36,978 nt of DNA from Chloroflexota bacterium (GTDB lineage Bacteria > Chloroflexota > Anaerolineae > Promineifilales > Promineifilaceae): positions 1 through 36,978 of the forward strand of contig RFGV01000476.1 in assembly GCA_003696605.1 (NCBI GenBank), read 5' to 3'. Position numbers and translations under genes: made by a program. Positions 8,445 through 18,400 of this stretch are shown here, piece after piece. The notes under the pieces were generated by a model. That model worked only from the letters and a program-made list of their open reading frames with translations, searched no databases and was not told where the DNA came from. How positions within the stretch are numbered: the first letter of the stretch is position 1; each line of letters begins with the position of its first letter.

Positions 8445-8473
8445 TTGACAGCTCATTCGCCTCATGCTAACAT
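8445..8473 (+). promoter_or_regulatory. Promoter of the trp operon T-box leader
   Basis: A perfect -35 TTGACA (8445-8450) and TAACAT (8468-8473) are 17 bp apart, with TG one base before the -10. Transcription would start near 8480 and read into the T-box leader. The -35 lies in the loop and arm of the hairpin behind the preceding small gene. Confidence 0.75.
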
Positions 8474-8716
8474 TTTGACTATCAACTGAACAACCAAAGA
8501 CGTTGATTCGGAATAGTAACCGACAAAGCGGGTCTCAGAGAGTTGGCCCTTGGGCTGAAAGGCCAATGTCAGCGCAGTCGGTGAATGGGCCGAGGAGTTG
8601 CTCAGGCGAAATCTGTACAAAGAGGGGAGAGTAGCTTGAGACGGAGGTGCCACCGTTATCTGGGCATAGGTTTCGGCATCTGGTCGGAACTGAAATGAGT
8701 GAGGCTGGCTAATCAC

Positions 8717-8745
8717 AACGCGCTTTCACAAGCGCGTTTTTGTTT
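8717..8745 (+). terminator. Stem III of the T-box, itself terminator-like
   Basis: AACGCGCTT (8717-8725) pairs perfectly with AAGCGCGTT (8730-8738) around TCAC and is followed by TTTTGTTT. Its position just upstream of the T-box is that of Stem III, but the fold has the form of an intrinsic terminator. It may be only structural. Confidence 0.6.
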
Positions 8746-8793
8746 ACAGGCACAGGCTGGCCTAACCAGGGTGGCACCGCGGGAGATTGTTAG

Positions 8794-8834
8794 CGCGCTC
8801 TCGTCCCTGCAAGGGGATGAGAGCGCGTTTTTTT
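8794..8834 (+). terminator. Regulated terminator of the trp T-box
   Basis: Fourteen consecutive base pairs (8794-8807 with 8814-8827, one G-T) enclose a six-base loop and are followed by seven T. The left arm contains the CTCGTCCCT segment that pairs with the T-box when tRNA-Trp is uncharged, so termination and antitermination are mutually exclusive. Confidence 0.95.
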
Positions 8835-8859
8835 ATTTATTCAGGTCTGGAGGAGGTGT

Positions 8860-10230
8860 ATGATGACCGAATCAATTAAGTTTTTACTGGATGAGAATAA
8901 GTTGCCGCGGGCGTGGTACAACATTAATGCTGATATGCCTGTACCACCAGCACCGGTGTTGCATCCGGCTACAAAGGAGCCGGTTACGCCGGATTTTTTG
9001 AGTGTGTTGTTCCCGATGAGTTTGATTATGCAGGAAGTGAGTACAGAGCGGTGGATTGAGATTCCAGAGCCTGTTCGGGAAGTATATAAGCTGTGGCGGC
9101 CAACGCCGTTGTTTCGGGCACGGCGACTGGAAAAGGCATTGGATACGCCCGCACATATTTATTACAAGTATGAGGGTGTCAGTCCGGTTGGATCGCATAA
9201 ACCGAATACGGCCGTTGCTCAGGCATTTTATAACAAAGAGGCTGGTACACAGGCATTGACGACGGAAACCGGAGCCGGGCAATGGGGTTCGGCTTTGGCG
9301 ATGGCTTGCCGTTTTTTCGACCTGGACCTGGAAGTGTATATGGTGAAGGTGTCGTACCATCAGAAGCCGTATCGGCGGATTGTAATGCAGACATATGGGG
9401 CGCAGGTTTTTGCCAGCCCGACAGATCGAACGGAATACGGCCGTTCTGTGTTGGCTCAAGATCCTGATTCCCCTGGTTCCCTGGGTATTGCCATTTCGGA
9501 AGCTGTCGAAGCTGCGGCGACTTCTGGAGGCAAAAAGAAGTACAGTCTTGGTTCAGTGTTGAATCATGTGTTAACGCACCAGACAGTGATTGGCCTGGAG
9601 GCACTGGAACAAATGGAGATGGCGGGTGAATATCCGGATGTGATTATTGGCTGTGTTGGTGGCGGTTCCAATTTTGCCGGGTTTGCGTATCCGTTTTTGC
9701 ATCAAAACCTGACGAATGGCAAGCAAACACGGATTATCGCTGTTGAGCCGTCTTCTTGCCCGACTTTGACACGGGGCAAGTATGCATTTGACTATGGAGA
9801 TACGGCCGAAATGGCGCCAATTGTCAAGATGCATACATTAGGACATACGTTTGTGCCCCCTGCCATTCATGCGGGCGGATTGCGATATCATGGCATGGCA
9901 CCAACGGTAAGCGCATTGGTGGCAGAGGGGTATATTGAGGCGCGGGCAGTGGGGCAATTGGATACATTTGCCGGTGCGGTACAGTTTGCGCGAGCCGAGG
10001 GGATTATTCCGGCGCCGGAGTCGTCGCATGCGGTTCGCGTAGCCATTGATGAGGCGTTGCGCTGCAAGGAAACCGGCGAGCGTAAAGTGATTGTGTTTAA
10101 TCTGTCGGGACATGGTCATTTTGATATGGCGGCTTATGAGGCTTATTTCAGAAATGAGTTGGCAGATTATGAGTATCCGGCGGAAGAAATTGCAGCAGCA
10201 ATGGCGCATTTGCCGTCGGTAGAGATGTAA
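8860..10230 (+). CDS. trpB: Tryptophan synthase beta chain, TrpB2 type
   Basis: The enzyme is a PLP-dependent protein of 456 residues that joins indole and serine to make tryptophan. Length and motifs are those of the TrpB2 branch: [32 protein letters not shown] with the PLP lysine at 114, and a phosphate-binding GGGSN at 267-271. Canonical TrpB1 instead has a HKxNN motif and is about 400 residues. TrpB2 enzymes often do not form a tight complex with TrpA, and no trpA is in this window. It is the first gene after the T-box leader. GGAGG lies six bases before ATG 8860, and a second ATG at 8863 is an equal candidate. An ACGGCCGTT element encodes Thr-Ala-Val right beside the PLP lysine. Confidence 0.95.
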
Positions 10231-10260: not shown

Positions 10261-11811
10261 ATGATGCTGGATTTGAAGGAAATGAAGGGGAAGGAAACGG
10301 CCGTTTACCACCCTGCTTTGCCAGAATTTCGGGAATTGGCAGCTGGTGAAGCCAACCTGATTCCTGTGTATCGGGAGTTTGCTGCTGATTTGGAAACGCC
10401 TGTGTCAGTGTACTTGAAGCTGATGAATGAAGGGGATGCTTCATTTTTGCTGGAGTCGGTAGAAGGTGGCGAACAGGTGGGACGTTATTCATTTGTGGGG
10501 GTTCATCCACGCGGAATGGTGGCTTTGAACGGCCGTTCTATCACCGAACTCCGTTCAGGCAACACAACAACACGCCCCCTGAATGAGGATGAGGATATTC
10601 TGGATGTGATTAAAGCCGAATTGGCCCGTTTTACCCCCGCCGATGTTCCTGGCTTGCCCCGATTTATTGGCGGTGCAGTTGGCTATTTGGGATATGATGT
10701 CGTGCGGTTTTTTGAAAAATTACCAGAAACGGCCGAAACAGTTCTGGATATTCCCGATGCCATCTTTTTATTCGCCGACACTCTGGTTGTATTCGACCAT
10801 GCCCGACATCGCCTGCTCATTCTGGCCAACGCACGAGTCAATGGCGATATAGAAATGGCTTACGTGGACGCCATTCAACGAATTGAACAAGTCAGCAAAC
10901 GACTATTACGGCCGTTGCCCGCCATCCCCACCCGCCGTTGGGGCACATTACACCCCCCCACCAACGGCCAAAACATCACCGCCAACATGACACCAGAACA
11001 ATACCAGGCCATCGTCCAACAAGCACGAGAATACATCGCCGCTGGCGACATCTTCCAGGTGGTACTCAGCCAGCGATTCAGTCGCCGCACCAACGCCCAC
11101 CCCTTCGCCATCTACCGCGCCCTAAGAATGCTCAACCCCTCCCCCTACATGTTCTACTTCAACTTCGGCTCCCTCGACATGCAAGTCATCGGTGCCTCAC
11201 CCGAAATGCACGTCCGCCTGGAAGATGGCATCGCCAGCATTCGCCCCATCGCTGGTACCCGCCGTCGGGGCCAAACAGAAGCCGAAGACACAGCCCTCGC
11301 CGCTGAACTACTCGCCGACCCCAAAGAACGCGCCGAACACGTCATGCTTGTTGATTTAGGCCGCAACGACTTAGGCCGAGTCAGCGAATACGGTTCTGTT
11401 CAGGTCAAAGACCTCATGGTTGTAGAACGATACAGTCATGTTATGCACATCGTTAGCCATGTAGAAGGCCGTCTCAAGGCAGGTATGGATGCATTCGATC
11501 TTATGCGGGCCACCTTTCCCGCCGGAACAGTAAGCGGCGCCCCAAAAGTACGCGCCATGGAAATCATCGAAGAATTAGAAGGCCAGCGACGTGGCCTTTA
11601 TGCTGGCGCAGTTGGTTATGTAGGGTATGATGGCAGTATGGACACCTGTATAGCCATTCGCACACTACTCATGCAAGGTGATACCATACACGTACAGGCA
11701 GGGGCAGGCATAGTTGCCGACAGTAACCCGGCACGCGAGTACCAGGAATGTGTCAACAAAGCACGGGCTTTACTCGTCGCTGTTGAACGAGCTGAAGCCG
11801 GTCTTTTATAA
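10261..11811 (+). CDS. trpE: Anthranilate synthase component I
   Basis: The protein is 516 residues, normal length. With TrpG it makes anthranilate from chorismate, the first step of tryptophan synthesis. The N-terminal tryptophan-feedback site is intact: LLES at 63-66 and NPSPYM at 292-297. The chorismate-binding half has [20 protein letters not shown], the [14 protein letters not shown] segment and [23 protein letters not shown] precedes ATG 10261 by five bases. It is 30 bases after trpB and shares the T-box transcript, so it is likely controlled both by tRNA charging and by feedback inhibition. Base usage shifts sharply along the gene, from G-rich codons before about 10530 to C-rich ones between 10900 and 11350. 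Confidence 0.97.
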
Positions 11812-11840: not shown

Positions 11841-12908
11841 ATGAGTAAAAAACGATTACTGACAGGTGATAGACCAACCGGAAGTCAACTCCACTTAGGC
11901 CATTATGTGGGCAGCCTGGCAAACCGCGTGCGGCTGCAAGATGAATATGAAACCTATATCCTTATCGCTGATTTGCACATGTTAACCACCAAAAACACGA
12001 AAGAAGACATTAATGCAGTGCGGGTCAACGCCGTGGAGTTGGTAAAGGACTATCTGGCGGTAGGCATTGATCCTGCCAAAACAACGATTTACTTGCAGAG
12101 TGCTATTCATGCTGTGTATGAGATGAATCTCTTTTTTGAAATGTTGGTTACTGTGCCACGTCTTAGTCGGCTGCCTTCTCTTAAGGATATGGCACGTAAT
12201 GCCCATCTGGCAGAAATGCCCTTTGGTTTGTTGGGGTATCCTGTTTTGCAAGCTGCCGATATTTTGATGCCGCGGGCACATGTTGTACCAGTAGGCAAAG
12301 ATAATGAGGCGCATGTAGAAATTACGCGCGAGATTGCCCGTCGGTTTAATTACCTTTATGGGGAAGTGTTCCCGGAACCGGCATCCATTATCGAGCCGAC
12401 GCTGATTGGCATAGATGGCAAGGCCAAGATGAGTAAAAGTCTGAATAATGCGATTTTCCTGAATGATGATCCCAAGACGGTTGAAAAGAAAGTTCACAGC
12501 ATGTACACAGATCCCAACCGCATTCATGCCAATATTCCCGGACGAGTTGAGGGGAATCCAGTGTTTATTTATCACGATATTTTTAATCCGAACAAGGAAG
12601 AAGTGGAGGATTTGAAGGCGCGGTATCGGGCTGGCAAAGTGGGGGATGTGGAAGTAAAGCAAAAACTGGCGCGTGCGCTTAACAATTTTTTGGATCCGAT
12701 TCGGGAAAGACGGGCACAAGTGGAGGCTGATAAGGGACTGGCAGAACAGGTGATTTATGAAGGGACGGTTAAGGCGAATAAGGTGGCTGAGGAGACCTTG
12801 TTGGCGATGAAGAAGGCGATGGGTTTGACTGGCTTGTGGAACAAAATTAGCCGCAAGGGGCGAGATCGCCTGAAACGGTTGGAGCAGGCCGGTGAAAATG
12901 GGTCTTAA
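11841..12908 (+). CDS. trpS: Tryptophanyl-tRNA synthetase
   Basis: The protein is 355 residues. It is a class I synthetase that charges tRNA-Trp. The HIGH motif appears as HLGH (18-21), after the GDRPTG that binds tryptophan/ATP, and KMSKS is perfect at 196-200. AGGAG lies upstream of ATG 11841, 29 bases after trpE. It sits inside the trp biosynthetic operon, behind a T-box that senses tRNA-Trp charging. The enzyme that charges the sensed tRNA is therefore induced along with tryptophan synthesis. It is one of the few long genes here with no CGGCCG element. Confidence 0.97.
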
Positions 12909-12934: not shown

Positions 12935-13498
12935 ATGGTTGTGGTGATTGATAATTACGATTCGTTTACCTATAACCTGGTGCAGTATTTGGGTGAATTG
13001 GGAGCGGAGGTACGTGTATTTCGTAATGATGAGGTGACGCTGGCAGAGTTGGCGGCGTTGCAGCCGAATAAGATTGTGATTAGTCCGGGACCGGGTGATC
13101 CGGATGATGGGGGGATTTCGAATGAGGTGATTCGGATGTTTGGCCCCAAAACGCCGTTGTTGGGGGTGTGTTTGGGGCATCAGTGTATTGGGGCTGTGTA
13201 TGGGGGTAGGGTGGTGCGTGCGCCGCGTTTGATGCATGGAAAAACTTCGGCCGTTTATCATCATGGTAAGGGGTTGTTTTACGGAGTTCCCAGTCCGTTT
13301 CAGGCTACGCGTTACCATTCCCTTATTGTGGAGGAGCCTTTGCCTGATTGTTTGCAAGTAACGGCTTTTACCCGACATGGAGAGGTGATGGGGTTGCGAC
13401 ACAAGGAGTATCCTGTTGTGGGCGTGCAATTTCACCCAGAAAGTATTTTGACAGAGCATGGCAAACGTATCTTGCAGAATTTTCTGGAAGGGCGTTGA
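12935..13498 (+). CDS. trpG: Anthranilate synthase glutaminase component
   Basis: The protein is 187 residues, a single-domain class I glutamine amidotransferase. It releases ammonia from glutamine for TrpE; in some bacteria the same protein also serves PabB for folate synthesis, which cannot be excluded. It opens with [22 protein letters not shown] and has [11 protein letters not shown], the nucleophile Cys79 in GVCLGHQ, and the His167/Glu169 pair in VQFHPES. The full catalytic triad is present. ATG 12935 is preceded by AGGGG; another ATG at 12928 is out of frame. It lies 26 bases after trpS and 45 bases before the M16C protease gene. Confidence 0.96.
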
Positions 13499-13543: not shown

Positions 13544-16465
13544 GTGACGGTTTTGCATGGATTCGAGTTGGTGCGGGAGGGGGAGGTGCCGGAGTTGAAT
13601 ACGAAGGCCAGATTGTGGCGGCATGTGCGTACGGGGGCGGAGTTGCTTTCGATGGTGAATGATGATGAGAATAAGGTGTTTGGTATTGCGTTTCGAACGC
13701 CGCCAACGGATTCAACGGGTGTGCCGCATATTATGGAGCATGCTGTTTTGGCTGGTTCGCGCAAGTATCAGGTGAAAGAGCCGTTTGTTGAGTTGCTGAA
13801 AGGTTCGTTATATACGTTTTTGAATGCGTTTACTGCTCCTGATCGAACGGTTTATCCGGTGGCGAGTACGAATTTGCAGGATTTTTATAATTTGGTGGAT
13901 GTGTATTTGGATGCTGTGTTTTTTCCTCTGATTACACCGCATCATTTGGACCAGGAGGGTTGGCATTATGAGCTGGAGAGTTTGGATGCGCCTTTGGTTT
14001 ACAAGGGGGTGGTGTTTAATGAGATGAAGGGGGCGTATTCGTCTCCGGATGGGTTGGTTTACCGGTATGGGAAGCAGGTGTTGTTTCCGGATACGGTGTA
14101 TGCGCATGATTCGGGGGGAGATCCGGAGGTGATTCCGCAACTGACTTATGAGCAGTTTAAGCGGTTTCATGAGGTGCATTATCATCCGTCGAATGCGATG
14201 ATTTATTTTTATGGGGATGACCCGGAGGAGGAGCGGCTGCGATTGTTGGATGGGTATTTGCGGGATTTTGAACGTCGGGAGGTGGCTACGGCCGTTTCTT
14301 CTCAACCCTCTTTTTCATCCCCGCGCCGCCATACTTTTCCTTTTCCAGCTGAAGCCCAAGGGGCAAATGCTGACAAGGGAATTGTGCACATCAACTGGCT
14401 TTTGCCTGAAAATGACGACCCTGAACTGGCAATGGCTTTGCAAATTCTTTCTTATGCTTTGGTTGGCACACAAGCCTCTCCGCTGCGCAAGCGGCTAATC
14501 GACTCTGGCCTGGGTGAAGACTTGACGAGTAGTGGTCTTTCTACTTATTTGCGCCAAATGACTTTTGGGGTTGGTTTGAAGGGGGTACGTGTTGCCGAGG
14601 ATGCTGACCGGGTGGAGCAATTGGTTCTGGATACCCTGGAGGAACTGGCTCAGGAAGGTATTGAGTCAGATATGATTGAAGCGGCGTTGAATACGATCGA
14701 ATTTAATTTGCGCGAAAATAATACGGGGCGGCTGCCGCGGGGATTGGTTCTTATGAACCGTGTGTTAACTTATTGGGTTTACGGCCGTAATCCCTTTGAT
14801 GTGCTTGGCTTTGAGGCGCCCCTGACAGCTGTAAAATCTCGCCTTGCTGCCGATCCTGCTTATCTGCAAACGCTAATCCGCCGCTACTTGCTGGCAAACC
14901 CCCATCGGGTTACGCTGGTGTTGGAGCCAGACCCAACTCTGAAGCAGCGATTGGAAACGGCCGAAAAAGAAAAACTCGCCCAAATCCGCAGCCAGATGAG
15001 TCAGGAAGAACTCCAGGCCATCATCGAAAACACCCGTGCCCTGAAACAACGACAAGAATCCCCTGATCCCCCAGAAAAACTGGCCGCTATCCCCCGATTA
15101 CAACTATCTGACCTTGATCCGGAAATCAAGCGCATTCCTCTTGCTATTTCAGAGGCCGGAAATGCCCCCTTGCTCTATCATGATTTGTTTACCAACGGCA
15201 TTCTTTACCTGGATATTGGCTTCAATTTGCAGGCATTGCCGGTTGAACTGTTGCCATATGTTCATTTATTTGGGGCGTCCTTATTGAAAATGGGTACGGA
15301 AACAGAGGATTATGTCAAATTATCGCAGCGAATTGGACGAAAAACAGGGGGAATATCTACCAGTTATCTGGCTTCAGCTTTGCGCGACCGTGAAGGAACG
15401 GCCGTTTGGATGTTCCTGCGCGGCAAAGCGACCGTTCCCCAAGCCCCTGAACTACTTGCCATCATACGAGACATCCTCCTCACTGTACAACTCGACAACC
15501 AGGAACGATTCCGCCAAATTGTATTGGAAGCCAAAGCCCGTAAAGAAGCCAGTCTCATTCCAGGTGGGCATGGTGTCATCGATCGGCGGCTACGGGCACA
15601 TTTCCATTCTGCCGATTGGGTGTCTGAACAAATGGGAGGCATTAATTACCTCTTCTTTCTCCGTCAATTGCTGGAAGAAATAGATAACAACTGGTCAGCC
15701 GTTCATGCCAGATTGGAACAAATACGGCAGGCACTCATCAACCAGTCTAACATGCTTTACAACGTCACTCTGGACGCAACCAACTGGCAAACATTAGAAC
15801 CACAAATCCAGACGTTTGCTACCTCATTTCCCGTGCAACCCGTTACACACCATTCATGGGACCATACTATTTCCACTACTTGTGAGGGACTTACTATTCC
15901 AGCTCAGGTCAATTATGTCGGTAAGGGGGCAAACCTTTATCAACTTGGCTACAAACTACATGGTTCTGTCGCTGTAATTACCCGCTATTTGCGGACAACC
16001 TGGCTGTGGGAACGAGTGCGGATGTCTGGTGGGGCGTACGGCAGCTTTTGCAGTTTTGACCGGGATACAGGTGTATTGACTTTTCTGTCGTACCGTGATC
16101 CGAATTTGTTGGGCACACTGAATGTTTATGACCAAACGGCCGATTTTCTGCGGCGACACGACCTGACCGAAGATGAACTGACAAAAGGAATCATTGGTGC
16201 CATTGGTGCGCTGGATGGATACCAACTCCCAGATGCAAAAGGTTATACCTCCATGGTGCGTTATCTGATTGGTTCTACCGATGAGAGCCGACAAAAGTTT
16301 CGGGATGAAGTGTTGGGCACAACGGCCGTTCATTTTCGCGAATTTGCCGATATTCTCGACCAGGTACGTCAGGCAGGCCACATTGTTGTGTTAGGATCAG
16401 CCGATGCGCTCACTGCTGCCAACGAACAATTACAGCCACCAATGAAAATGATTCAGGTGATGTAA
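13544..16465 (+). CDS. M16C metalloprotease (presequence-protease-like)
   Basis: The protein is 973 residues, typical of subfamily M16C (PreP/CYM1), which forms a closed chamber and degrades short unstructured peptides. The inverted zinc motif HxxEH is HIMEH at 62-66, in the conserved context TGVPHIMEHAVLAGSRKY. The distal Glu ligand is Glu160 in NEMKGAYS. Four M16 half-domains fit the length, with the non-catalytic half carrying the Arg/Tyr-rich SGGAYGSF near residue 830. The start is GTG 13544 with GGAGGT upstream. No signal peptide is seen, so it is cytosolic. It is inserted between trpG and trpD, and the trpD ribosome site overlaps its stop, so it is co-transcribed. The link to tryptophan is not known. 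The 5' part is strongly GT-rich up to the element at 14289 and C-rich after it. Confidence 0.93.
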   Translation: MTVLHGFELVREGEVPELNTKARLWRHVRTGAELLSMVNDDENKVFGIAFRTPPTDSTGVPHIMEHAVLAGSRKYQVKEPFVELLKGSLYTFLNAFTAPDRTVYPVASTNLQDFYNLVDVYLDAVFFPLITPHHLDQEGWHYELESLDAPLVYKGVVFNEMKGAYSSPDGLVYRYGKQVLFPDTVYAHDSGGDPEVIPQLTYEQFKRFHEVHYHPSNAMIYFYGDDPEEERLRLLDGYLRDFERREVATAVSSQPSFSSPRRHTFPFPAEAQGANADKGIVHINWLLPENDDPELAMALQILSYALVGTQASPLRKRLIDSGLGEDLTSSGLSTYLRQMTFGVGLKGVRVAEDADRVEQLVLDTLEELAQEGIESDMIEAALNTIEFNLRENNTGRLPRGLVLMNRVLTYWVYGRNPFDVLGFEAPLTAVKSRLAADPAYLQTLIRRYLLANPHRVTLVLEPDPTLKQRLETAEKEKLAQIRSQMSQEELQAIIENTRALKQRQESPDPPEKLAAIPRLQLSDLDPEIKRIPLAISEAGNAPLLYHDLFTNGILYLDIGFNLQALPVELLPYVHLFGASLLKMGTETEDYVKLSQRIGRKTGGISTSYLASALRDREGTAVWMFLRGKATVPQAPELLAIIRDILLTVQLDNQERFRQIVLEAKARKEASLIPGGHGVIDRRLRAHFHSADWVSEQMGGINYLFFLRQLLEEIDNNWSAVHARLEQIRQALINQSNMLYNVTLDATNWQTLEPQIQTFATSFPVQPVTHHSWDHTISTTCEGLTIPAQVNYVGKGANLYQLGYKLHGSVAVITRYLRTTWLWERVRMSGGAYGSFCSFDRDTGVLTFLSYRDPNLLGTLNVYDQTADFLRRHDLTEDELTKGIIGAIGALDGYQLPDAKGYTSMVRYLIGSTDESRQKFRDEVLGTTAVHFREFADILDQVRQAGHIVVLGSADALTAANEQLQPPMKMIQVM

Positions 16466-16479
16466 AGGAGGAACACGAG

Positions 16480-17511
16480 ATGCCTTTAAAACCCTACATA
16501 GCCGAAGTCATAAACGGCCGTCATCTCACCCTCGAACAAGCCGAAGCCGCTATGGATATCATCATGACCGGCGAAGCTACCCCCGCCCAAATTGGCAGCT
16601 ACCTGACTGCCCTCCGCATGAAAGGAGAGACCGTTGCCGAAATTGCCGGTAGTGCCCGTTCCATGCGCAAACACGTCGTACCCGTCCAGATACCTGTTGC
16701 CAGCATAGGCGAAATGTTGGTGGACACTTGTGGCACAGGCGGAGATGGCAAACATACCTTCAACATCTCCACCACCGCCGCCTTTGTAGTAGCCGGGCAT
16801 GGTGTGCGCGTTGCCAAACACGGCAACCGGGCAGCCAGCAGCAAATCCGGTTCAGCCGATGTTCTCATGGCATTAGGCGGCAACCTGGACCTGACCCCGG
16901 AGCAAGTTGCCCAGTGTATTACTGAAACTGGAATTGGCTTTTTGTACGCCGTTAAACACCATCCTGCTATGCGCCATGCCATCGGACCACGTCGTGAAAT
17001 CGGTCAGCGTACTATTTTCAATCTGCTGGGGCCGCTGACAAACCCTGCTGGCGCCACCCATCAGCTTATTGGTGTGTATGATCCGGCCTTGACTGAGCCG
17101 CTGGCACGTGTATTAGGTACTCTTGGCAGTCGAGCAGCTTTTGTTGTTCATGGTGCAGATGGTCTGGACGAACTTTCTACAACAGGCGTCAATCGAGTTA
17201 GCCATTTGCATAATGGGGAGGTAACAACATTTGAGCTGAATCCGGCTGACCTGGGATTACCCCGTGCCCGACTGGATGATTTGGTAGGGGGGACGCCAGA
17301 AGAAAATGCCCAGATTACACGAGATATTCTGAGTGGACGGGAGCAGGGGCCACGGCGGGATATTGTTTTGCTGAATGCGGCGGCTGTATTGAGTGTGGAA
17401 TGTGGTGATTGGCAGGCAGGTTTGGCAGAGGCGCGTGAAGCGATTGATAGTGGGGCAGCATTGCGAGTGTTAGATGCCTGGATTGAGATGACGAATCGTT
17501 TTCGTGTATGA
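16480..17511 (+). CDS. trpD: Anthranilate phosphoribosyltransferase
   Basis: The protein is 343 residues. It attaches the phosphoribosyl group of PRPP to anthranilate, the second committed tryptophan step. The N-terminal helical domain is followed by the PRPP-binding CGTGGDG from Cys84, then FNISTTAAFV, KHGNRAASSKSGSADVL, the HPAMRHAIGPRREIGQRTIFNLLGPLTNP anthranilate/PRPP segment and the DGLDELS motif. All are intact. AAAGGAGG lies directly before ATG 16480 and overlaps the stop of the protease gene. PRPP comes from prs, which is also in the window (23248). Confidence 0.97.
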   Translation: MPLKPYIAEVINGRHLTLEQAEAAMDIIMTGEATPAQIGSYLTALRMKGETVAEIAGSARSMRKHVVPVQIPVASIGEMLVDTCGTGGDGKHTFNISTTAAFVVAGHGVRVAKHGNRAASSKSGSADVLMALGGNLDLTPEQVAQCITETGIGFLYAVKHHPAMRHAIGPRREIGQRTIFNLLGPLTNPAGATHQLIGVYDPALTEPLARVLGTLGSRAAFVVHGADGLDELSTTGVNRVSHLHNGEVTTFELNPADLGLPRARLDDLVGGTPEENAQITRDILSGREQGPRRDIVLLNAAAVLSVECGDWQAGLAEAREAIDSGAALRVLDAWIEMTNRFRV

Positions 17512-17554
17512 TGGTTGGTGGGATGGGTGAATTGGTGATTATGAGGAAATGGCA

Positions 17555-18400
17555 ATGAGTGTGTCGAATTTGGCGAAACGGCGCGGTAAGATTTTGGATG
17601 AAATTATGCGGTATCATCGGGAGCAGTTGCCTAAAATTATGCGGGATGTGCCGCTTGAAGATGTGCGGGCGTTTGCTCGTGTTGCCCCCCCACCAGTGAG
17701 TTTGGCGGAGACGTTGGCGTTGCCTGGTGTAACGTTGATTGCGGAATGTAAAAAGGCGTCGCCGAGTAAGGGTTTGTTGGTGCGTGATTATGATCCGGTG
17801 CGGTTGGCGCAGATGTATGTGCAGGGCGGGGCGGGGGCGATTTCGGTGTTGACGGATGGCCGGCATTTTCAGGGTTCGTTGACGGATTTGCGGGATGTGA
17901 AGGAGGCATTGCTGGATGTGCGCTCACCGGTGACGAAACGGCCGATTCCTGTTTTGCGCAAGGATTTTATTTTTCATCCTTATCAGCTTTATGAAGCCAG
18001 GGCAGCTGGGGCAGATGTCGTGCTGTTGATTACGGCCGTTCTTGGTGATAGCGATCTCCGCCAGTTACTGCGGTTGGCACACGAACTCGGTATGGACGCA
18101 TTGGTAGAAGTTCACTCAGATGCAGAACTGGAACGTGCATTGGCGGCAAATCCCCGTATTATTGGTGTCAATAACCGGAATTTACAAACATTTGCAGTGG
18201 ATTTTGAAAATACGGCCCGTTTGCGTGACCGAATTCCTCCTGACGTGTTGGTTGTGGCTGAGAGTGGCCTAAAAACAGCCGCAGATGTGCGCAGGATGGC
18301 TGAAATTGGCGTAAATGGCATTCTGGTAGGTGAGACGCTGGTACGCAGCAAAGATGTACTCCAAACCGTGAAGGCGTTTGTAACTGCTGGAAATAAATAG
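17555..18400 (+). CDS. trpC: Indole-3-glycerol phosphate synthase
   Basis: The protein is 281 residues, a TIM barrel. It closes the indole ring to give indole-3-glycerol phosphate. Catalytic residues are visible: Glu64 and Lys66 in IAECKKASPSKG, Lys136 in LRKDF, Glu in ALVEVHSD, Asn in GVNNRNL and Glu/Ser in VVAESGL. The phosphate loop GILVGETLVRS is complete. I chose ATG 17555, eight bases after GAGG; the ATG at 17549 is too close to it. This is the last trp gene, and a terminator follows at 18425. trpF and trpA would have to be elsewhere. Confidence 0.96.
   Translation: MSVSNLAKRRGKILDEIMRYHREQLPKIMRDVPLEDVRAFARVAPPPVSLAETLALPGVTLIAECKKASPSKGLLVRDYDPVRLAQMYVQGGAGAISVLTDGRHFQGSLTDLRDVKEALLDVRSPVTKRPIPVLRKDFIFHPYQLYEARAAGADVVLLITAVLGDSDLRQLLRLAHELGMDALVEVHSDAELERALAANPRIIGVNNRNLQTFAVDFENTARLRDRIPPDVLVVAESGLKTAADVRRMAEIGVNGILVGETLVRSKDVLQTVKAFVTAGNK

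Follow-up and report, generated by a model that had tools for sequence, protein, structure and literature searches.

A candidate two-gate tRNA-Trp T-box with a terminator-like hairpin nested in Stem III, upstream of a trp operon in Chloroflexota

The window, a stretch of 36,978 nucleotides from a Chloroflexota bacterium, contains an operon for tryptophan synthesis and tRNA charging in the order trpB2-trpE-trpS-trpG-(M16 peptidase)-trpD-trpC, preceded by a T-box leader (Table 1). The original prediction, which had been made from the sequence alone, was right in naming trpB2, trpE, trpS, trpG, trpD, and trpC, but omitted the M16 peptidase gene in the gap between trpG and trpD. A locus of Chloroflexi isolate Ww555 (L107) has the identical order trpE-trpS-trpG-M16-trpD-trpC; it was the only one with an M16 match among 110 loci, most of which end before that point. 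The placement of the window outside the Firmicutes agrees with the nearest named TrpS loci, which belong to Chloroflexota (Caldilineae and Anaerolineae MAGs), and with the gene order shared with L107; the most probable class is Anaerolineae. TrpS itself (11841-12908) is approximately 74% to 77% identical to copies in MAGs of Armatimonadota, Latescibacterota, and Poribacteria, which suggests transfer between phyla. Because the Armatimonadota and Latescibacterota copies also reach at least 74% to 75% identity, TrpS alone is a poor marker of lineage.

Table 1. Features of the T-box leader and of the trp operon downstream, in window coordinates
Feature	Position	Strand	Basis
Promoter-like TTGACA-17-TAACAT, TG before second hexamer	8445..8473	+	Consensus scan, 10/12 matches
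T-box leader, Stem I to 3' side of antiterminator	8494..8811	+	RF00230, 107 bits (cut-off 93)
Specifier codon UGG (Trp) in Stem I specifier loop	8586..8588	+	Sequence and Rfam alignment
Stem II, S-turn signatures (GAA ... AGUA)	8600..8640	+	Rfam alignment
Stem IIA/B pseudoknot: CGG...CCGUUA (F-box), GUGCC...GGGCAU	8641..8667	+	Rfam alignment; pseudoknot pairing by eye
Purine string GAGUG (RRRxG) plus A	8697..8702	+	Motif definition from PMC7583486
Stem III 5' strand AGGCUGGCU, with second UGGC at 8706-8709	8702..8710	+	Fold
T1, nested terminator-like hairpin AACGCGCUU-UCAC-AAGCGCGUU with U-tract UUUGUUU	8717..8745	+	z -3.4; covariation
Stem III 3' strand, followed by conserved AA at 8764-8765	8755..8763	+	Fold; alignment A2
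T-box AGGGUGGCACC, with UGGC (8772-8775) matching tRNA-Trp 3' end GCCA	8768..8778	+	Sequence, Rfam alignment, tRNA
T2, main T-box terminator: 17-pair stem and U-tract	8792..8836	+	Hairpin 8792-8829; z -4.8
trpB2 (TrpB-like PLP enzyme)	8860..10230	+	NF009057, 747 bits
trpE	10261..11811	+	TIGR00564, 585 bits
trpS	11841..12908	+	TIGR00233, 322 bits
trpG	12935..13498	+	TIGR00566, 241 bits
M16 peptidase, PreP type, 973 aa, between trpG and trpD	13544..16465	+	PF08367, PF22516
trpD	16480..17511	+	TIGR01245, 417 bits
trpC	17549..18400	+	NF001377, 307 bits

The T-box proposed for this site was borne out by the Rfam covariance model RF00230, which matched the forward strand with 107 bits (gathering cut-off, 93; E 7e-23) in an alignment spanning all 219 model positions. 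Its predicted extent, 8507-8836, was accurate at the downstream end, where the U-tract runs to approximately 8836, but began 13 nt late. The promoter-like pair adjoins the leader on its upstream side. The sequence of the specifier loop is GUGAA-UGG-GCC, in which relatives' Trp leaders retain GAAUGG, and that of the bulge is AGGG-UGGC-ACC. The RRRxG-Stem III-AA discriminator motif is present (GAGUG at 8697-8701, AA after Stem III), and antiterminator and terminator are mutually exclusive (AGGG...UCCCU in the model match versus the T2 hairpin). The predicted fold of the full 343-nt leader beat all 100 shuffled versions (z -4.2), and z was -0.4 for the entire Stem III region. A single RF00230 match was found in the window, without the second complete Stem I/specifier/antiterminator unit that would characterize a tandem T-box. 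The full-leader fold also uses a 9-nt complement between 8646-8654 and the bulge (8770-8778), which we did not retain as a conserved device, because the GCCACC stretch in relatives varies with its partner in the Stem IIA/B pseudoknot (e.g., in L268, by eye), and not with the bulge.

Control by tRNA-Trp had been predicted from a TGG specifier ahead of the trp genes and trpS and from a TGGC bulge that would match a discriminator G. The genome contains a tRNA-Trp gene (G000:C585, 352-426) with anticodon CCA, the only one for this amino acid among the 30 tRNA matches scanned out of 39 in the genome, and this gene ends in ACCCCCU-G, making G the discriminator. The GCCA end of this tRNA, when uncharged, can pair with the UGGC bulge, the variable fourth letter of the bulge, C, facing the discriminator G. 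As predicted, the specifier, the bulge, the tRNA, and the operon are in agreement with control of synthesis and trpS by tRNA-Trp. Six T-boxes were found in the genome, 5 of which score over the RF00230 cut-off; a T-box with a long Stem II insertion (L006:152-441; G000:C35) lies just below it with 91.8 bits. The genome also encodes a tRNA-SeC (G000:C332:18434-18527), which adjoins genes for tRNA-Cys, tRNA-Gly, and tRNA-Phe.

T-boxes were found in all 59 of the 59 relatives searched, in 56 of them over the cut-off. Wels et al. (2008, PMC2494555) describe T-boxes of Dehalococcoides, also of the Chloroflexi, that are linked to trpE and to a trpB-like gene, and T-boxes of this phylum appear again in a 2013 report (PMC3766115). 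Given the 59 relatives and the Dehalococcoides report, a T-box outside the Firmicutes is not unusual in itself, and the Trp T-box as such, a known regulator already reported in the phylum, adds little. The Dehalococcoides Trp T-boxes have the phylum and the association with trpE and a trpB-like gene in common with the leader studied here; unlike that leader, they are described in the available account with no mention of a second terminator.

A second terminator-like hairpin, T1, is present in the window leader and had been overlooked when the T-box was predicted. The hairpin (8717-8738) sits in the loop of Stem III, ahead of the antiterminator and the bulge, and RNA polymerase would therefore meet T1 before T2. 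Each of these 2 terminator-like sites has a U-tract. T1 has the form of an intrinsic terminator, in which a GC-rich hairpin is directly followed by a U-tract, and it appears in the predicted folds of both the full leader and a leader cut at T1 (252 nt), the latter having an unremarkable fold overall (z -1.2). By a terminator score, the T1 of the window reaches 14.6, and 77% of 114 T1s score above 0 (23% below). Across 104 leaders, the mean hairpin energy is -12.8 kcal/mol, with 7.5 U in 9 nt.

At the corresponding place, the Trp leaders of relatives have a hairpin with a different stem sequence, a UCAC loop, and a U-tract. Among 15 seed sequences, the covariation score of T1 was 0.340 versus 0.212 in shuffles, 4 pairs were changed on both sides (13 cells versus 3.5 in shuffles), and slid structures collapsed. 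We built a covariance model (R1) of the purine string, Stem III, T1, and the bulge from 15 sequences and searched 396 genomes of the class with it. In 98 leaders, which were aligned to R1 and are hence fitted to it, 13 of 15 pairs were changed on both sides (164 such cells versus 44 in shuffles), 92.8% of cells were paired, and the covariation score was 0.421 compared with at most 0.093 for slid structures. Since such compensatory stem changes occur in many families, the T1 hairpin is under selection.

Many families of the class conserve T1 in their Trp leaders, and a few relatives have lost it (L070, L092, L095, and L097). A set of 40 distinct Trp leaders, collected independently of the T1 model, comprises 24 with T1 and 16 without; the T1s of L072, L094, L254, and L264 were added by eye. 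One T1 call (L112) was dropped as spurious, and L217-1457 was left out as a coding false positive. From the best R1 sites in the 396 genomes, 110 loci were taken, and 104 of these were recognized as T-boxes, all 104 with a UGG specifier (96 by pattern, 8 by eye). Six loci had no recognized T-box row (L223, L238, L261, L265, L283, and L284); L223 and L238 also have UGG and T1, L283 and L284 have T1 in sequences that end before the specifier, and nothing was found in L261 and L265. A promoter-like pair similar to that of the window lies upstream of 46 of the 106 T1-bearing leaders with enough upstream sequence. R1 matches occurred in 301 of the 396 genomes, an upper bound on prevalence, because T1-less trpS leaders also reach 39 to 43 bits (L329 and L333). 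In 400 genomes drawn from the phylum, R1 matched at E 1e-6 or better in 40, of which 38 belong to the same class; of the 2 outside it, G430 (L340) has T1, and the other is G492. By eye, a T1-like hairpin in Stem III was absent from all 41 other T-boxes or look-alikes matched by pattern in the loci collected earlier, 3 of which the hairpin scan had flagged. Within this sample, T1 is specific to Trp leaders.

The presence of T1 is associated with the genes that follow. All 24 T1-bearing leaders in the set of 40 precede trpB2 (20), trpE (3), or trpS followed by trpB2 (L104), and the 16 T1-less leaders precede trpS (11), trpB2 (3), or trpE (2). For 10 of these 11 trpS leaders, no further trp gene was found in the available 1.9 to 7.2 kb; the remaining one, L102, precedes trpS-trpB2. 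Among 94 leaders selected with R1, the first gene was trpE in 35, trpB2 in 29, and trpS in 25, with none seen in 5. Within 1.5 kb, trpB2 was found in 5 of the 25 trpS-first leaders; when sequence further downstream was fetched (leaving out L282), trpB2 was the next gene in 18 of 19, the exception being L299, with none in 7 kb. In addition, stand-alone trpS leaders without T1 were found in 10 genomes, each of which has another Trp leader that bears T1, followed in 9 of the 10 by a visible trpB2 or trpE. T1 is kept mostly on biosynthetic operons. We rejected a strict tie, as this is a trend and not a rule: L299 has T1 before trpS only, L102 is T1-less before trpS-trpB2, and 5 further T1-less leaders in the set of 40 precede trpB2 or trpE.

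Two short elements around T1 are conserved along with it. The conserved T1 loop is UCAC or UCAU, and GUGA at 8699-8702 is complementary to UCAC. The purine string (RRRxG) is assigned to the charging sensor (PMC7583486). A UCA[CU] hairpin sequence together with a GUG[AG] flank was found in 107 of the 117 T1-bearing leaders whose flank could be read, or 108 when counting L286, which has UCAC and a misread flank; L288 was counted as lacking the flank. Exceptions to the pairing are seven GUGA leaders that lack UCA[CU] and L072, which has a GAGA flank and no UCUC. The match is weak by itself, since by our own estimate, approximately 3 of every 10 random 4-mers would find a pairing partner within the conserved stretch of 13 nt. 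UCAC or UCAU is not a general habit of terminators, however, given its occurrence in 75 of 114 T1 loops versus 7 of 129 other terminator-like hairpins. A change from GUGA:UCAC to GAGA:UCUC is what pairing between loop and purine string predicts. A GAGAG-flank pattern gave 22 matches in the 396 genomes, of which 8 carry T1 and 14 were unrelated by eye; all 8 of the T1-bearing GAGA-flank leaders have UCU[CU] (7 UCUC, 1 UCUU), and L323, found via R1, combines a GAGA flank with a UCUC loop as well. This GAGA:UCUC class may derive from a single evolutionary event. Some genomes contain 2 T1-bearing Trp leaders (L315 and L328 in G408; L321 and L330 in G415), of which the GUGA:UCAC leader precedes trpB2, and the GAGA:UCUC leader precedes trpE (L328) or trpB2 (L330).

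The second element is the additional UGGC in the 5' strand of Stem III, which reads ARGCUGGC in T1-bearing leaders. Its positions carry 1.7 to 2.0 bits in 117 T1-bearing leaders versus 0.00 to 0.41 bits in 16 T1-less leaders, and the facing positions of the 3' strand are far less conserved. This UGGC has the letters of the true bulge and likewise matches the GCCA end of the tRNA.

In T-box regulation, uncharged tRNA stabilizes the antiterminator, which lets RNA polymerase pass the terminator. Judging from the sequence comparisons, we consider it reasonably likely that the leader is a two-gate tRNA-Trp transcriptional T-box, with 2 terminator-like hairpins in series, the first nested in the Stem III loop. 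Uncharged tRNA-Trp, bound at Stem I and the bulge, would favor the antiterminator and allow polymerase to pass T2 into trpB2-trpE-trpS-trpG-M16-trpD-trpC, and T1 would stop part of the transcripts early. The discriminator requires the purine string (GAGUGA), and the T1 loop may pair with it, thereby steadying T1 and keeping the purine string unavailable until the tRNA docks. Biosynthetic operons would then be under tighter repression than the T1-less stand-alone trpS leaders of the same genomes, and T1 probably makes these operons harder to induce than trpS. T-boxes serve as a model of how RNA senses RNA, and their mechanism has been described for leaders with a single terminator; if the two-gate reading is true, one tRNA signal would yield 2 response thresholds, through the presence or absence of T1 between leaders of one genome.

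The second UGGC would fit a further proposal, which we consider unlikely, that the leader checks tRNA charging twice, with 2 acceptor-end checkpoints on one decoding stem that serve as proofreading for biosynthesis and not for stand-alone trpS. With polymerase at T1, the GCCA end of the Stem I-bound tRNA would pair with the upstream UGGC, and the purine string would dock on this GCCA:UGGC duplex instead of on the T1 loop, causing T1 to fail. The same tRNA end would then shift to the true bulge, and T2 would be defeated.

Alternatively, T1 could be passive or constitutive and have no sensing of its own, acting either as a fixed attenuator or as a pause that gives rare tRNA-Trp time to reach Stem I before T2. 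Consistent with this, no leader-encoded antiterminator of T1 was found when both of its arms were compared with the upstream and downstream leader (RNAduplex, native versus swapped), and the arms paired no better with their own leader than with other leaders (mean ranks 0.47 to 0.57), a result that also counts against the two-gate reading. A pairing between the 5' arm of T1 and the 3' arm of T2 was dropped, being absent in L078 (by eye). The hairpin also forms in the truncated and the full leader predictions and is confined to Trp leaders in our sample. Nevertheless, a passive T1 leaves unexplained the conserved loop and the second UGGC, as well as the lack of T1 in stand-alone trpS leaders reading the same tRNA; for a pause in particular, a hairpin directly followed by a U-tract has the look of a terminator and not of a hairpin pause. 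We therefore regard a passive T1 as doubtful. No conserved Trp-rich reading frame, as sought for a leader-peptide attenuator, was noticed by eye in the Trp leaders.

T1 could also be a decoration of Stem III that reinforces the fold of the discriminator, its U-tract being incidental and causing no termination. Stem III contributes to the sensing of aminoacylation, and translational T-boxes have been reported with insertions there (both in PMC7583486). Against this, the U-tract is kept across the 104 leaders while the stem sequences change freely, and Stem III is a plain hairpin in other T-boxes of the lineage, making such a decoration quite improbable. That the leader is an ordinary tRNA-Trp T-box in which T1 is a lineage relic, such as a duplicated T-box terminator, might be read from AGGCUGGC(C)UAA and AGGGUGGCACC/terminator, which look like a partial repeat by eye, and from the few losses of T1, but is very hard to reconcile with the compensatory stem changes in the 98 leaders across many families.

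The two-gate leader, as we prefer to read it, shares with class I transcriptional T-boxes (RF00230) the Stem I with specifier, Stem II, Stem IIA/B, Stem III with purine string, UGGN bulge, and antiterminator/terminator, and adds to these the terminator-like hairpin nested in Stem III, with its UCAC loop and U-tract, and the second conserved UGGC. The trpX T-box of Streptococcus suis (PMC9382623) has the UGG specifier, the UGGC bulge, and tryptophan-controlled transcriptional attenuation in common with it; in the part of that report available to us, one terminator is described, and the operon encodes a transporter. Tandem riboswitches, including T-boxes with ppGpp or SAM-I riboswitches, also combine more than one regulatory platform in a leader, each with its own sensor domain according to the available text (PMC9481103). 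In the window leader, by contrast, a single Stem I/II precedes both hairpins, one of which lies within the sensor of the other. In the open-licence literature, including the available text of PMC3766115, PMC2494555, PMC7583486, PMC7778990, PMC9481103, and PMC9382623, we found no account of a T-box whose Stem III contains a nested terminator.

Another T-box of this genome, a Leu T-box with specifier CUC (L005:1399-2469; G000:C327), precedes genes for an alpha/beta-hydrolase and leuS. Its Stem III loop holds a complete tRNA-Ala(GGC) gene at the place where the Trp leader has T1, and a tRNA-Ala(CGC) gene lies just upstream of the T-box. We found no report of a Leu T-box with a nested tRNA gene in the open-licence literature. 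Processing of the tRNA-Ala would split the Leu leader in two. The nested tRNA-Ala(GGC) was found in all 20 loci considered (L360-L379), which comprise this one and the 19 best-scoring matches in relatives, and a leuS-like sequence was found in 18 of the 20. One of these loci (L365) has a promoter-like TATAAT within the Stem III loop.
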